A DNA stretch of 64,000 nt from the NCBI RefSeq assembly GCF_014651635.1, contig NZ_BMXG01000007.1:62001-126000 (forward strand), written 5' to 3'. The DNA is from Cerasicoccus arenae. Its GTDB lineage: Bacteria > Verrucomicrobiota > Verrucomicrobiia > Opitutales > Cerasicoccaceae. Below are positions 2,520 to 8,858 of this stretch, in pieces (positions within the stretch are counted from its first letter, which is position 1; each line of letters begins with the position of its first letter). The notes under the pieces were generated by a model that saw nothing but the letters and a program-made list of their open reading frames with translations, did not search any database and was not told the origin of the DNA. The position numbers and the translations under genes were made by a program.

Positions 2520-3878
2520 TTAAGAATCGGAGGCGGGGGGGCGACTGTCGCGGCGGCTATTCTGGCCTGAGCCATCTTGGCGTGGCCCATCCTGACGTGG
2601 CCCGCTACGACGGTTTTTACCACCACGCTTACCACGGCGGCGCTTTGGCTGATCACCCTCTTCACCAGCAGGACGATCAGTGCGAGGTCCACGGTTCTGG
2701 CTTTGGTTGCGATTTTGTCCCCCACGAGGCCCACGATTCTGATTAGAACCTTTTCCACGCGGCCGACCGTCCGAACGACGATCGCTGCGAGCTGATGGTT
2801 CTTGCTTTGCTTCAGCTTTGGGCGCTTCTGCACCGCCAAAGAGCGAGCGGAAAACCTTCTTAACTGCACCAAGGAAACCCTTTTCAGCCTTAGCTACTGG
2901 TTTGGCACTGGAGCTAGCAGCCTCATTACGGGGCTTCCATTCGCTGGTGCGGGTACCACGCTCATTTGAGCGTGGTCCTCGATCACTACGTGGTCCTCGG
3001 TCGCCACGTGGGCTGCGATCACCTGAACGTGGTCCACGATCGCCAGAGCGTGGATCGTTGTTGCGCGGAGCACGCTCTGAACGAGGGCCGTCTGGGCTCA
3101 CATCGCTAGATCCCGTGGCCGCTTCGCCCTCTACAGGCTTCTTTTTACGGTTACGACTGCGCTTACGCTTTGGTTTTGGTCCGTCTTCCGAGGATTCCGT
3201 TGGAGACTTGGCAGCTTCGTCGGTGACACCGTCAGTTGGAGCGGTTTCTCGTTTTGGAGCAGTGTGGCGCTTCCGTTCAGGTTTACCGTCTGCTAGACGA
3301 CCACTGAGCTTTTCTTCAAAAGCGGCAGGAGATTCGACTAGACTTGGGTAACCAGAGACCTCTTTCGACTTACTCGCCTCCGGACGGTTGCGTTTCCGGC
3401 TAGAGGACGATTTCGACACTTCTGAGCGATTTTGCAGCAGTGCAGGGCCAGGATCCGGCAAGCCACTATCGTCAATACGACGTGTTTCCGCCTTTGGAGC
3501 AACTGGTTCGGTTTTGGACGCGGTTGCTGCAACTTCTGGTTCTTTTTCTGCTGTGATATCGTCTTCTGCGAGTCCTTCAACTGCTACATCCATTTCGGGG
3601 TCGTAGTCAGTCATATCAAACTCATCTAGGGATTCCTCTTCAAGTATCGGTTGGACTTGGGCCTGTGCTGTAGCAGCTTCAGCTGCTACAGAGGTTTCTT
3701 CGGGCTCAGTCGGTTCGGGTTCTTTAGCTAAATCGCCCCAGGACAGACGTTCCTGTCCGAGGCCGATGTTTTTGGTTTCTTCGGCGGAAGCGTCCGGTGT
3801 GGTCGCATCTTCGCCTGGACGATAGTTATCGTCCTTTCGCGCCTTAGGCTGCGAATTAGTGTGTTCGAATGAAGGCAT
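2520..3878 (-). CDS. Disordered, RG-rich basic protein, putative RNA-binding
   Basis: This 452-aa protein has no recognisable enzymatic domain. Residues 1-130 are acidic and rich in Glu/Ala/Pro, with a short SWGDLAKEP element at 46-54. The middle is mixed charge with a KRKRSRNRKKK cluster near 238-247. Residues 262-310 hold degenerate repeats of a GDRGPRS-type unit. Residues 333-350 form one hydrophobic, probably amphipathic helix (KGFLGAVKKVFRSLFGG). The C terminus (360-452) is again Arg/Gly/Gln rich and includes PKRRRGKRGGKNRR. Composition resembles RNA-binding tails of bacterial RNase E, DEAD-box helicases or IF-2, so an RNA or ribosome role is inferred from composition alone. It is transcribed alone: a divergent gene lies upstream and a terminator downstream. 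A G7 tract occurs near its 3' end. Confidence 0.8.
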   Translation of the reverse strand: MPSFEHTNSQPKARKDDNYRPGEDATTPDASAEETKNIGLGQERLSWGDLAKEPEPTEPEETSVAAEAATAQAQVQPILEEESLDEFDMTDYDPEMDVAVEGLAEDDITAEKEPEVAATASKTEPVAPKAETRRIDDSGLPDPGPALLQNRSEVSKSSSSRKRNRPEASKSKEVSGYPSLVESPAAFEEKLSGRLADGKPERKRHTAPKRETAPTDGVTDEAAKSPTESSEDGPKPKRKRSRNRKKKPVEGEAATGSSDVSPDGPRSERAPRNNDPRSGDRGPRSGDRSPRGDRGPRSDRGPRSNERGTRTSEWKPRNEAASSSAKPVAKAEKGFLGAVKKVFRSLFGGAEAPKAEAKQEPSARSDRRSDGRPRGKGSNQNRGPRGGQNRNQSQNRGPRTDRPAGEEGDQPKRRRGKRGGKNRRSGPRQDGPRQDGSGQNSRRDSRPPASDS

Positions 3879-4182: not shown

Positions 4183-5361
4183 ATGGGACTAGAGTTTAAT
4201 CCATGTGGACGCACCTTCGCCTACCTGAACAGTCATGAATTGAACGATCGTATGAACCTCAACGATCATCCGTTTTTTCGCAACTCTGATCAAGAGAGTG
4301 TGGCGCAGCTCGTCGACCAGGCGGATGTCTCCAGCTATGTTGACGGAGAAGTCGTCTTTTTGGAAGGAAGCCCTTCGGACAGTCTGTGTCTAGTGCTGGA
4401 AGGCACGGTGGCTTTTGCGGCCGAAACGCCAGATAATCGACGACGCATTATTTCGACCGCAAAACAGGGCAACTTCTTCGGCGAAATTGGGATATTCACT
4501 GGTGCCCCTCGTTCCTTGAGCGCAATTGCAGAGGGAGAGGTCCGCATTGCTAAAATTTACCGTGAAGACCTCCTGACGTTCATTAAACGCACACCTGGAC
4601 CGATTGAACAAATCTTGGGCAGCATTGTTAATCATCTTCATCAGACGACCCGCCATTATCTCGATGACATGCTCCAGCAGGAGAAAATGAGTTTGGTGGG
4701 CACGATGGTGAACAGCATTATCCATGACTTCAAGAACCCCTTCACCCTCATAGGATTAGGCGCTCAAATGCTGGAGAGTCGCCATAAGGAAGACGCCAAA
4801 ACAATTAAAATTTGCACCAACATCGCCGCTCAAGTCGATCGCATGGTTGAGATGGCCAACGAGCTTTCCGAATTCTCTCGAGGCGAGCAAAAGCTCATTT
4901 TCAGTCAAGTCAGCCTAACACAGCTTTTTGAAGAATTCCGTGAACTCAACGAACCCTCCTTCGTAAAAGCAAACCTCCAGATCGAGATGGATATTGTCGA
5001 TCTCACCATTGAGGCGGAAAAAAACAAGTTGCTGCGCGTCATTCAGAATCTTGTTGGCAACGCCGTGGACGCACTGGGAGACAAGCCAGATGCAATAATC
5101 TCGCTTCTCGCCAAATCTGAAGGCGACCACGTAGTGATTACCATTACCGACAACGGAAACGGTATCCCTGAACAGATTCGCAATAAATTTTGGACGCCAT
5201 TCGTTACATTTGGTAAAAGCCGTGGGACTGGGCTAGGTTCTGCCATCGTCAAATCTATCGTCGAAGCTCATTGTGGCACAGTGGAATTTGAAACTGAAAC
5301 AGGCAAAGGCACCACCTTCACTGTGAGCCTGCCGATCGAGCAACCTGACCATATTGCCTGA
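4183..5361 (+). CDS. Cyclic-nucleotide-binding-domain histidine kinase
   Basis: A soluble sensor kinase of 392 aa. Residues about 28-140 form a CRP-type cNMP-binding fold; its phosphate-binding cassette reads GEIGIFTGAPRSLSA (100-114), close to the canonical GEL...PR pattern. A helix (HQTTRHYLDDMLQQEKMSLVG) leads to the H-box SIIHDFKNPF with the predicted phospho-acceptor His181. An HATPase_c domain follows, with N box (NLVGNAVDAL), G1 (DNGNGIP) and G2 (GTGLGSAIV). There is no receiver or transmembrane segment, so it is probably cytoplasmic. A second in-frame ATG at 4252 is an alternative start; no Shine-Dalgarno sequence marks either. It lies 46 bp before the UrtA-like lipoprotein gene and probably shares its transcript. 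No response regulator is in the window, so its partner is unknown. Confidence 0.88.
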   Translation: MGLEFNPCGRTFAYLNSHELNDRMNLNDHPFFRNSDQESVAQLVDQADVSSYVDGEVVFLEGSPSDSLCLVLEGTVAFAAETPDNRRRIISTAKQGNFFGEIGIFTGAPRSLSAIAEGEVRIAKIYREDLLTFIKRTPGPIEQILGSIVNHLHQTTRHYLDDMLQQEKMSLVGTMVNSIIHDFKNPFTLIGLGAQMLESRHKEDAKTIKICTNIAAQVDRMVEMANELSEFSRGEQKLIFSQVSLTQLFEEFRELNEPSFVKANLQIEMDIVDLTIEAEKNKLLRVIQNLVGNAVDALGDKPDAIISLLAKSEGDHVVITITDNGNGIPEQIRNKFWTPFVTFGKSRGTGLGSAIVKSIVEAHCGTVEFETETGKGTTFTVSLPIEQPDHIA

Positions 5362-5407
5362 TTAGGCTCGGCATCCGCTTGCCTTTTAGGTTGATGCTTA
5401 CACCGCG

Positions 5408-6709
5408 ATGCCGAAATATATCTCATCGATGACCCGCATTTATCTGCTCAGTTTATTGGCCACAGCAATTGCGCTCTTAGCCGGCTGTGGCGAACGACAA
5501 AAGGAGCAAACCGTCAAAGTAGGCATCCTTCACTCCACCACTGGCACGATGGCCTCCTCCGAGGAGCACGTGATTGACGCTGTTCAGCTCGCGATCAAGG
5601 AGATTAACGAGAGCAATTACCTACCAGGCATCAAGCTCGAAGCGATTGTGCGAGATGGTCACTCGAATGAAACAATATTCGCACAACAGGCGGAAGACCT
5701 GCTAGCTCGTCAGGGTGTCGCAGTTATCTTTGGTGGGTGGACCTCAGCCAGCCGAAAAGCAATGATCCCTGTTCTTGAGAAACACGACGGACTGCTCTTT
5801 TATCCAGTTCAATATGAAGGGGCAGAAAGTTCCCCCAATGTCGTCTACACGGGCGCAGCACCGAACCAGCAAATAATCCCTGCAGTTTACTGGGCAATGA
5901 AAGATAAGGGCGCAAAGCGCTTTTATCTGGTCGGCTCAGACTATGTTTTTCCACGCACAGCAAATGAAGTTATCAAAGATCAAATTAAGGCCCTTGGCGG
6001 CGAAATTGTTGGCGAGCGCTATCTCCCCTTGGGTTCTGAAGATGTCGAAGAAATCGTTGCAAACATTAAGGAATCTCAGCCTGATTTCATCCTCAACACG
6101 ATTAACGGTGACAGTAATGTAGCTTTTTTTCGCGCACTTCGGGCTGCTGGGATCGAGTCAAAAGATGTCCCCACAATGTCATTTAGCGTCGACGAGAACT
6201 TACTCAAGAGCATGGGTATGGAAAAGCATTTGCTCACTGACGACTACGCCGCTTGGAACTATTTCCAATCAGTACCGACCCGCGAAAACCGGCGATTTGT
6301 AGATAACTTTAAAAAGGAATATGGCGAAGATAGCGTGACCTCCGATCCTGTTGAGGCAGCTTATAGTGCGGTGTATTTATGGGCGGAAGCCGTTAAAAAG
6401 GCTGCCCTCGATAAAGAGTCCATCACTGTGGAGATGACTCAGCCCAATGTAGTTCTAGATGAGCTTGGCAATCGCAGTTTCCAAGCTCCAGGAGGGATCG
6501 TTTTTATCGACCCTCAGAATCAACACATTTATAAGACTGCTCGTATTGGTCGAATCAAACAGGACGGCCAATTTGAAGTCGAGTGGCAGAGCGATGCCCC
6601 AGTACGCCCTGCCCCCTACCCCATTTTTCGGCCAATGGAGTCTTGGGACGAATACCTAGCCATGCTCAAAAAAGGCTGGAATGGCCAATGGAGTGCGCCC
6701 CCCGAATGA
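5408..6709 (+). CDS. UrtA-like (urea/short-chain amide) substrate-binding lipoprotein
   Basis: This is a periplasmic binding protein of the UrtA/AmiC group, which normally delivers urea or short-chain amides to an ABC transporter. The 433-aa product starts with a lipoprotein signal: a hydrophobic stretch ending in the lipobox LAGC (Cys27). The body carries blocks typical of UrtA: VGILHSTTGTMA, FGGWTSASRKA, LLFYPVQYEG, YTGAAPNQQI, VGSDYVFPRTANE, NGDSNVAFF and AAWNYFQSVPT. There are no urtBCDE permease or ATPase genes next to it. Instead a kinase gene precedes it and its stop codon overlaps the chemoreceptor start (ATGA at 6706-6709). This suggests a sensory role, presenting ligand to the receptor, rather than transport. 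The ligand itself is inferred from family resemblance only. Confidence 0.88.
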   Translation: MPKYISSMTRIYLLSLLATAIALLAGCGERQKEQTVKVGILHSTTGTMASSEEHVIDAVQLAIKEINESNYLPGIKLEAIVRDGHSNETIFAQQAEDLLARQGVAVIFGGWTSASRKAMIPVLEKHDGLLFYPVQYEGAESSPNVVYTGAAPNQQIIPAVYWAMKDKGAKRFYLVGSDYVFPRTANEVIKDQIKALGGEIVGERYLPLGSEDVEEIVANIKESQPDFILNTINGDSNVAFFRALRAAGIESKDVPTMSFSVDENLLKSMGMEKHLLTDDYAAWNYFQSVPTRENRRFVDNFKKEYGEDSVTSDPVEAAYSAVYLWAEAVKKAALDKESITVEMTQPNVVLDELGNRSFQAPGGIVFIDPQNQHIYKTARIGRIKQDGQFEVEWQSDAPVRPAPYPIFRPMESWDEYLAMLKKGWNGQWSAPPE

Positions 6710-8814
6710 GCAATCAACAACAGCCACACACGTTTCTATCTGCTGGCCGCAAGAGCCGACCAGCAACAAAGACTGCGACCGAGTCAAAACGTGCGCCTAA
6801 AGCGGGGCGTCGATTGTTCCGGCAGATCATGATCTACTTCTTGGCCATCGCCATGGCCCCGTTGATTATTGTCAGTGTCGTTCAGTATCTGCTGGCGCGT
6901 AAGGCTCTATTAGAGACAGAGGGTACATATTTGGCCTCAATTGCCGATCTCCAGCTCAACGAAGTACGCGCATATCTGGAGGAAGTTGAGAACATTGTTG
7001 GGCTGGTGGCTGATAGCCCTGCGGTTCAGTACAGCCTACTCTATCTCAAAGAAATGACCGCCATTGATCTGCCTACCATTGAGCAAGATACAACCTACCT
7101 TGAGGTGAACGAGTTCGCACGGCCGATCATGCGCGACCTCCGCAGTAAGTTAGGCTTTAAACAAATTTGCCTCATCAACAATGAAGGCGTGGTTGTCTAT
7201 AGCGACCCAGCTATTCCACAGGAATATCGTGATTTGCGGGACGAAAGCAACCGCGAGAATGAGCTCGCGAAGTCGTTTGAAAGCTCGATCCGGCTGATGA
7301 GCGTGCAAGCTGGAGATTACGATAGATTTCCCGGCACACAGGAACCAGCCCTCTTCATCACCAGCCCAGTACTCGAAGATGGCATCCTGCTCGGGGCAGT
7401 CGCCCTTGTGCCCGAAAACAAAAAACTGCTTTCGGTCATAGAAGACACCACTGGCCTAGGAGAAACAGGCGAAGTCATGTTTATCGCCAAACGAGGTGAG
7501 GACATTATTGCGCTCAATAATCTACGAAGTGATCAGACTCTGGCATTTAGCAAAATCACCGACTACGAGCCCAATCCCGGGCAGCAATTAAGCCCGTCGC
7601 AGAAAGCTATACGAGGCATGAGCGGTGGAGATCTGGATGTTGATTACCGCGGAGAGGAAGTGGTTGCTATCTGGGATTACTTGCCGAACCTTCGCCTAGG
7701 TCTCGTCTTGAAAATCGACCGAGACGAAGTTTTCGGGCCGGTTAATCATCTCCTGCAAGCGTCTATTCTGGTTGCGGGCATCACGCTATTTGTCGTGGCT
7801 ATCGCCGCGCTATTAATGTCACGAGGCATTACTCAACCAATCGCTGGCTTGACCGATGCTGCGCACCGACTGGCCGAAGGCGACCTGACTGCAGAAATTC
7901 GTTGCAAGGCACGTAACGAGATTGGCCAGCTTTCCGCCGCCGCTCAAACGATGGCCACGAATCTTAAATCACTTGTGGGGAAGGTCAAAGTCACAGCAGA
8001 AGAAATTAGTGGGGCCTCGCGACACCTCAGCGCATCGGCTCAACAACAGGTAACTGCCGCAGAGCAAACGGGCACCGCCTCCGTGGAAGTCAATGCCACA
8101 GCCAAGCAAATTTCCACGACATCGCGCGAGTTGGCCGAGACCATGAAACAGGTGAACGCTGTCACTCAGGACACCGCACTCAAAGCGGAGTCTGGGCTGG
8201 ACGTCCTCGCTGCTATTGGGACATCGATGAAAGAGCTAGGTATCGCCAATGACGAAGTCGCCGAACAACTGGATGTTATTAATCAGCGTGCACATGCGAT
8301 AACCAGCGTCATCGCAACGATGACCAAAGTCGCCGATCAGACCAATTTACTTTCGCTGAACGCAGCCATTGAGGCAAAAAAGGCCGGTCAGCATGGGCGC
8401 GGCTTTTCCGTCGTTGCCATCGAAATTCGCCGCCTCGCCGATCAAGCTGCATCCTCCACACTTGAGATTGAGCAAAGCGTTCAAGACATGCTTGCAGCTG
8501 TCCAAAACGGGGTAAAAAATATGGGTATGTTTTCCCGAAAAGTGGACACAAGTGTCGGCGAAATCATTGATATTAGCGGACGTTTAACGGACGTCATTCA
8601 GCAAGTGCAAGGACTCCCCCCCCGCTTCGATATGATTTTAGAGGGAATGGAAAGCCAGGCAGAAGGCGCAAGCCAGATCAACGAAGCCATGGGGCAACTG
8701 AGCACATCCGCCCAGCAAACCGCTAACGCAGTCCGTGAAACCAATCGCATGATTCTGAACCTGAAGCGTAGCGCCGACGTCCTACGCTCCGAAATTACGC
8801 GTTTTCAGACTTAA
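6706..8814 (+). CDS. Methyl-accepting chemotaxis protein with periplasmic sensor region
   Basis: A 702-aa chemoreceptor. I chose the ATG at 6706 because it overlaps the upstream stop as ATGA and follows a tightly coupled gene; longer in-frame starts lie inside the binding-protein gene. A basic N terminus precedes TM1 (about residues 42-66), then a periplasmic region of about 280 aa that is probably dCache-like, TM2 (about 351-372), a HAMP domain (RGITQPIAGLTDAAHRLAEGD) and a long cytoplasmic coiled coil. The signalling tip is recognisable near residues 545-575 (DQTNLLSLNAAIEAKKAG, then GRGFSVVA.EIRRLAD). It reads EAKKAG where most receptors have EAARAG. No CheA, CheW or CheR gene is in the window. 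A C8 tract at 8616-8623 encodes Pro-Pro near the C terminus. Confidence 0.93.
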   Translation: MSNQQQPHTFLSAGRKSRPATKTATESKRAPKAGRRLFRQIMIYFLAIAMAPLIIVSVVQYLLARKALLETEGTYLASIADLQLNEVRAYLEEVENIVGLVADSPAVQYSLLYLKEMTAIDLPTIEQDTTYLEVNEFARPIMRDLRSKLGFKQICLINNEGVVVYSDPAIPQEYRDLRDESNRENELAKSFESSIRLMSVQAGDYDRFPGTQEPALFITSPVLEDGILLGAVALVPENKKLLSVIEDTTGLGETGEVMFIAKRGEDIIALNNLRSDQTLAFSKITDYEPNPGQQLSPSQKAIRGMSGGDLDVDYRGEEVVAIWDYLPNLRLGLVLKIDRDEVFGPVNHLLQASILVAGITLFVVAIAALLMSRGITQPIAGLTDAAHRLAEGDLTAEIRCKARNEIGQLSAAAQTMATNLKSLVGKVKVTAEEISGASRHLSASAQQQVTAAEQTGTASVEVNATAKQISTTSRELAETMKQVNAVTQDTALKAESGLDVLAAIGTSMKELGIANDEVAEQLDVINQRAHAITSVIATMTKVADQTNLLSLNAAIEAKKAGQHGRGFSVVAIEIRRLADQAASSTLEIEQSVQDMLAAVQNGVKNMGMFSRKVDTSVGEIIDISGRLTDVIQQVQGLPPRFDMILEGMESQAEGASQINEAMGQLSTSAQQTANAVRETNRMILNLKRSADVLRSEITRFQT

Positions 8815-8819
8815 AAACG

Positions 8820-8858
8820 CAAGTGGGCAAAAATTAGCCCGTTTGTAATTTGTTTTTT
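8820..8858 (+). terminator. Probable terminator after the chemoreceptor gene
   Basis: A 9-bp stem with two G-U pairs (8820-8828 with 8837-8845, eight-base loop) begins 5 bp after the stop codon and is followed by TAATTTGTTTTTT. It would end the three-gene sensory operon. Confidence 0.65.

Follow-up and report, generated by a model that had tools for sequence, protein, structure and literature searches.

Layout of the locus

The window, a stretch of 64,000 nucleotides from Cerasicoccus arenae, carries three co-directional genes on the forward strand. They encode a soluble histidine kinase with a cyclic-nucleotide-binding domain (positions 4,183–5,361), a UrtA-type (Peripla_BP_5) solute-binding lipoprotein (5,408–6,709) and a transmembrane receptor composed of dCache, HAMP and MCP signalling domains (6,706–8,814). 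Pfam and NCBIfam gave the domain assignments, and the sequence bore out the coordinates and shared strand of these genes in the original prediction, as well as the overlap of the urtA-like stop codon with the receptor start codon in an ATGA at 6,706–6,709. The overlap is identical in all four Cerasicoccus species, and the two genes are predicted from it to be translationally coupled. By the listed starts, the gap between the genes for the kinase and the solute-binding protein (SBP) is 46 bp, as originally reported, and it ranges from roughly 46 to 60 bp across the genus. However, the spacing here is probably 67 bp, because the SBPs of congeners start at an MTR that matches M8 (ATG at 5,429). 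The kinase probably starts at the ATG at 4,252, as alignments with the majority of its orthologues begin only near residue 20.

A terminator had been proposed downstream of the receptor gene, and a terminator-like hairpin followed by a T-rich stretch indeed occupies positions 8,819–8,846 of the forward strand. The region holds five terminator-like sites, with 5.8 expected by chance; this one has the longest stem of the five and lies directly after the receptor stop codon. Beside the kinase gene, the reverse strand (2,520–3,878) encodes a strongly basic, repeat-rich protein of 452 amino acids that has no Pfam match and is conserved at this place in the genus.

The lipoprotein and receptor genes form a conserved pair

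We detected a UrtA-like protein at E ≤ 1e-60 in 66 of 273 Opitutales genomes. Outside the Cerasicoccaceae, the matches inspected lie in apparent urt operons, called by ORF sizes, with domains checked only in Cerasicoccus frondis. Stable SBP–receptor gene linkage is a criterion for SBP-dependent pairs, and within the family the two genes share a strand in all ten genomes, which represent four genera of one family and hence few independent events; they are adjacent in seven genomes and separated by one gene in three. In three genomes outside the genus, the ATGA overlap is replaced by a gap, which measures some 1–11 bases. The intervening gene (L047 8,784–9,690, L048 8,050–9,721 and L049 8,035–9,768) encodes a secreted protein without a Pfam match, in which units that start with FAFGGIGFxGxTSPGEIKF are repeated in the longest version.

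Trees of the SBP, the receptor and CheA have six of seven splits in common in each pairwise comparison, as expected under joint vertical inheritance. The nearest named matches of the UrtA-like protein are in C. frondis (77% identity) and C. maritimus (74%), and a single-protein scan of named genomes returned two congeners and one distant match. When 388 Verrucomicrobiota genomes were searched with a profile of the receptor sensor domain, only weak matches (24–29% identity) were obtained, and no UrtA was present in the ten regions inspected (L123–L132). These distant Cache-like sensor domains belong to other Verrucomicrobiota and are mostly near, or fused to, histidine kinases. We conclude that the real unit is the SBP–receptor pair rather than a three-gene cassette.

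A UrtA relative without a transporter

The UrtA-like protein scores 491 bits against Peripla_BP_5 and 477 bits against TIGR03407 (urea_ABC_UrtA), the latter just below the curated cut-off of 492.75, and retains the UrtA-family signature FGxWTSASRK...YPVQYEG. Its closest solved relatives are 8tg1 (the closest chain), 7s6e, 8hic, 7s6f and AmiC (1pea). In all ten receptor-linked SBPs, a cysteine follows an N-terminal hydrophobic stretch. Here it belongs to an LAGC lipobox (codon at 5,486–5,488, forward strand) and is the predicted lipidation site; two of the ten read TGGC, outside the strict lipobox motif. No lipobox was found in 28 transporter-type UrtAs of Opitutales.

A second distinguishing feature is the C-terminal tail (residues 405–433; 6,620–6,706), in which W413, W424, W428, A430 and P431 are common to all ten receptor-linked SBPs. 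This invariance makes the tail a candidate receptor-contact element; the AlphaFold model of the SBP (pLDDT 85.5) is of low confidence from residue 422 onwards. A tryptophan-bearing tail after residue 405 was not found in the transporter UrtAs of Opitutales. Outside the order, possession of a tail does not by itself mark an SBP as receptor-linked, because Vibrio and Photobacterium UrtAs with aligning tails are parts of ordinary urt operons, and we rejected these plasmid matches as further pairs.

The receptor-linked SBPs form one clade (support 1.0) that is separate from the Opitutales transporter UrtAs. Two congeners, C. frondis (G094) and G069, carry a second, transporter-type UrtA, and these copies fall outside the clade. 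At the C. frondis locus (L070 633–11,853), the second urtA is accompanied by genes for two BPD_transp_2 permeases, an ABC ATPase, urea carboxylase and allophanate hydrolase; the G069 locus resembles it in ORF-size pattern. The urt-type permeases of C. frondis have no counterpart in the source genome.

The source genome (4.13 Mb, 97.6% complete) encodes a single UrtA-like protein and yielded no match in a search for BPD_transp_2 permeases that was positive in 12 of 14 control genomes. The lack of a transporter noted at the locus therefore extends, for the permease, to the whole genome, leaving the SBP without a transporter partner of its own family. None of the ten Cerasicoccaceae genomes searched encodes urease alpha, so that no nutritional benefit of sensing urea is apparent here; a urea carboxylase route was seen in the congener C. 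frondis.

A strong UrtA family score is also what would be seen if a transporter urtA had been displaced and had come to lie beside a receptor gene by chance. We find this hardly credible in view of the family-wide pairing, the separate clade and the coexistence of a transporter-type urtA in two congeners. The pairing and the clade, together with the lipobox and the missing permease, instead agree with the earlier proposal that the lipoprotein is a receptor-linked sensing SBP. In this family of marine Verrucomicrobia, its probable role is to signal the presence of urea, or of a comparable small molecule, and not to serve import.

UrtA of the UrtABCDE transporter (TIGR03407; 7s6e, 7s6f, 8hic; 8tg1) thus shares its fold family and signature motifs with the lipoprotein, which differs in its predicted lipid anchor, distinctive tail, sub-cut-off score and pairing with a receptor, in a genome without a UrtBC-type permease. 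AmiC of the Pseudomonas amidase operon (1pea) is likewise a related binding protein used for regulation and not for transport. AmiC, a cytoplasmic protein, regulates the antiterminator AmiR, whereas the SBP described here is predicted to be exported and is paired with a transmembrane receptor.

A putative SBP-dependent receptor

In the receptor, Pfam assigned HAMP and MCPsignal domains and a dCache_1 domain that, at 46.1 bits, is barely over the threshold of 45. An AlphaFold model (pLDDT 85) and fold matches in the PDB place a periplasmic double-Cache sensor domain at 6,889–7,740, the best matches being the sensor domains of PctA, Tlp3, McpH and DctB; at the sequence level, the sensor profile matched nothing in the PDB. 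Across the family, the signalling domain is 66–89% identical and the sensor domain 41–78%. The hairpin tip QTNLLSLNAAIEAxKAGxxGxGF is common to the receptor and to the CheA cluster's own receptors, and over 170 aligned residues the signalling domain is 45–46% identical to those of the three other receptors of the genome.

Our favoured explanation, to which we attach somewhat better than even confidence, is that the urtA-like gene and its partner encode an SBP-dependent receptor module that feeds an ACF-type pathway, with urea or a short amide as the most likely ligand. The lipoprotein, with its predicted lipid anchored in a membrane, would bind this small polar ligand, and the ligand-bound form would then dock on the double-Cache domain. 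The receptor, in turn, would join the CheW/CheA array encoded elsewhere at cluster C3, which holds the only CheA present, and would modulate an ACF-type pathway with a CheR-TPR protein and a CheA-REC hybrid.

Alternatively, the receptor may sense its ligand directly through the double-Cache domain, with the lipoprotein as a mere neighbour that scavenges ligand or delivers it to a different transporter. We consider this unlikely, but it stays a rival because the Cache model resembles the direct sensors PctA and McpH, the fold matches as a whole including direct sensors of amino acids, purines and dicarboxylates. Solute-binding lipoproteins can also serve non-cognate transporters, and the secreted-protein gene between the SBP and receptor genes in three genomes counts against a docking module. 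A separate task for the lipoprotein is, however, difficult to reconcile with the absence of a BPD_transp_2 permease from the genome and with the anchoring and tail that set the SBP clade apart from transporter UrtAs, and an unrelated neighbour would not explain why the pair is kept family-wide, with an ATGA overlap in four species.

The docking that we favour has precedents in MalE–Tar, LuxP–LuxQ and NspS–MbaA, in which an extracytoplasmic receptor domain is presented with ligand by the SBP; the domain in LuxQ is of the tandem PAS/Cache type. In contrast to these systems, the SBP here is of the UrtA type and predicted to be lipid-anchored, and the receptor probably belongs to an ACF pathway. 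Activation of receptors by SBPs with bound ligand is a general mechanism, reported for at least 13 SBP families (PMC9602780). A chemoreceptor with a Peripla_BP_5 ligand domain has been listed as one cluster with one sequence (PMC8547431); that case is a single fused receptor, whereas the Cerasicoccaceae encode separate, family-conserved proteins. Our search of the open-licence literature found no description of a UrtA-type lipoprotein paired with a chemoreceptor. Thus, SBP-dependent receptors are already known, but the pairing of a UrtA-type lipoprotein with an ACF receptor appears new. The apparent conversion of a transporter binding protein into a sensor can be followed cleanly here within a single family, two members of which also carry transporter-type copies. 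The pair further suggests a specific input, accessible to experiment, for an ACF chemosensory pathway in bacteria that have no flagellar switch.

An ACF-type pathway with a probably non-flagellar output

Four receptors are encoded in the source genome but only one CheA cluster, C3, with the order MCP-MCP-CheW-CheR-TPR-CheW-CheA-REC, which is conserved in all ten family genomes. In its CheA, a REC domain accompanies two Hpt matches, and all three CheW-domain matches of the genome fall within the cluster. There is no separate multidomain output regulator in C3, the REC domain being fused to CheA. A CheB homologue follows the cheA cluster in six family genomes (two checked by Pfam). CheR-TPR marks ACF pathways (PMC3447774), and in C3 it occurs together with CheA, CheW and MCP proteins. 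Wsp and other ACF pathways (PMC3447774, PMC8846402) likewise combine an MCP, two CheW proteins, CheR-TPR and a CheA-REC hybrid, with the CheB component found in most of the family. The system differs from Wsp in that the source genome has neither WspR nor any other GGDEF protein, and in its input, which is a 4HB_MCP_1 domain in WspA and a Cache domain plus an SBP here.

FliG is absent from the source genome and from nine of the ten family genomes; the sole FliG-bearing member has a second, different CheA nearby. With no FliG, and with the only CheA in an ACF-type cluster, flagellar chemotaxis is unlikely, and the chemotaxis of the original prediction, taken in its motility sense, is not supported. 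Nor is a WspR-type output supported, given that no GGDEF protein is encoded. The output of the pathway would be non-flagellar here, with surface, pilus, envelope and developmental control as candidates. Upstream of the window lies a gene for a T2SSE ATPase similar in length to PilT, which keeps a pilus among the possibilities.

The kinase and cyclic nucleotides

The kinase combines cNMP_binding (68.5 bits), HisKA (29.6) and HATPase_c (88.9) domains, and no membrane segment was seen in its sequence, in agreement with its description as a soluble kinase with a cyclic-nucleotide-binding domain. Orthologues are present in all ten family genomes (59–80% identity) and all conserve a CRP-like FGE...R nucleotide-pocket signature and the H-box IIHDFKNPF, so that cNMP binding is plausible. 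At least one class III cyclase is encoded in every family genome.

Only in the four Cerasicoccus genomes does the kinase gene adjoin the SBP–receptor pair; it is unlinked in the other six, and in several family genomes outside the genus it adjoins a polyA polymerase gene. Because of this, its membership of a cassette is weak, and we downgraded it from a core member to a conserved stand-alone kinase that, in the genus, is encoded just upstream of the pair and may be co-transcribed with it. A mechanistic link between the two is possible.

The original prediction had gone further, envisaging a three-gene cassette for urea-directed chemotaxis in which the kinase contributes to the response by reading a second messenger. 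The gene order and its roughly 46–60-bp gaps are indeed kept throughout the genus, and both the CRP-like pocket and the family-wide class III cyclases would suit such a role. The order is not kept in the other six family genomes, though, and neither the missing FliG nor the ACF-type che cluster fits urea-directed chemotaxis. We therefore regard the cassette as quite improbable, and participation of the kinase in the receptor's response as weakly indicated by its adjacency in one genus. A broader scenario, in which a lineage in Verrucomicrobia turned a urea-transporter SBP into a lipid-anchored urea or amide sensor that drives an ACF pathway with a non-flagellar, non-c-di-GMP output, and a cNMP-reading kinase joined in one genus, strikes us as doubtful when taken as a whole.

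In the source genome only, genes for a WecG-type glycosyltransferase and a CHASE2–class III cyclase follow cheA (L004 13,406–16,829; G000:C3). This arrangement raises the idea that the pathway output is itself a cyclic nucleotide, with CheA acting on the CHASE2 cyclase and the cNMP-domain kinase reading the product. The lack of GGDEF proteins would be compatible with such an output, and in Pseudomonas the Pil-Chp system is connected with cAMP. But the cyclases of relatives lie elsewhere, none following cheA in any of the nine, congeners included, and the conserved neighbour in six genomes is the CheB-sized homologue. We dropped the link between cheA and the downstream cyclase, as it is kept in no relative, and rate a cNMP output as highly improbable.

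At another site in the source genome (L011 7,466–10,008; G000:C5), overlapping genes for an orphan receptor and a single-domain response regulator lie beside apparent glycine dehydrogenase genes. This response regulator may handle the output of the genome's single CheA.
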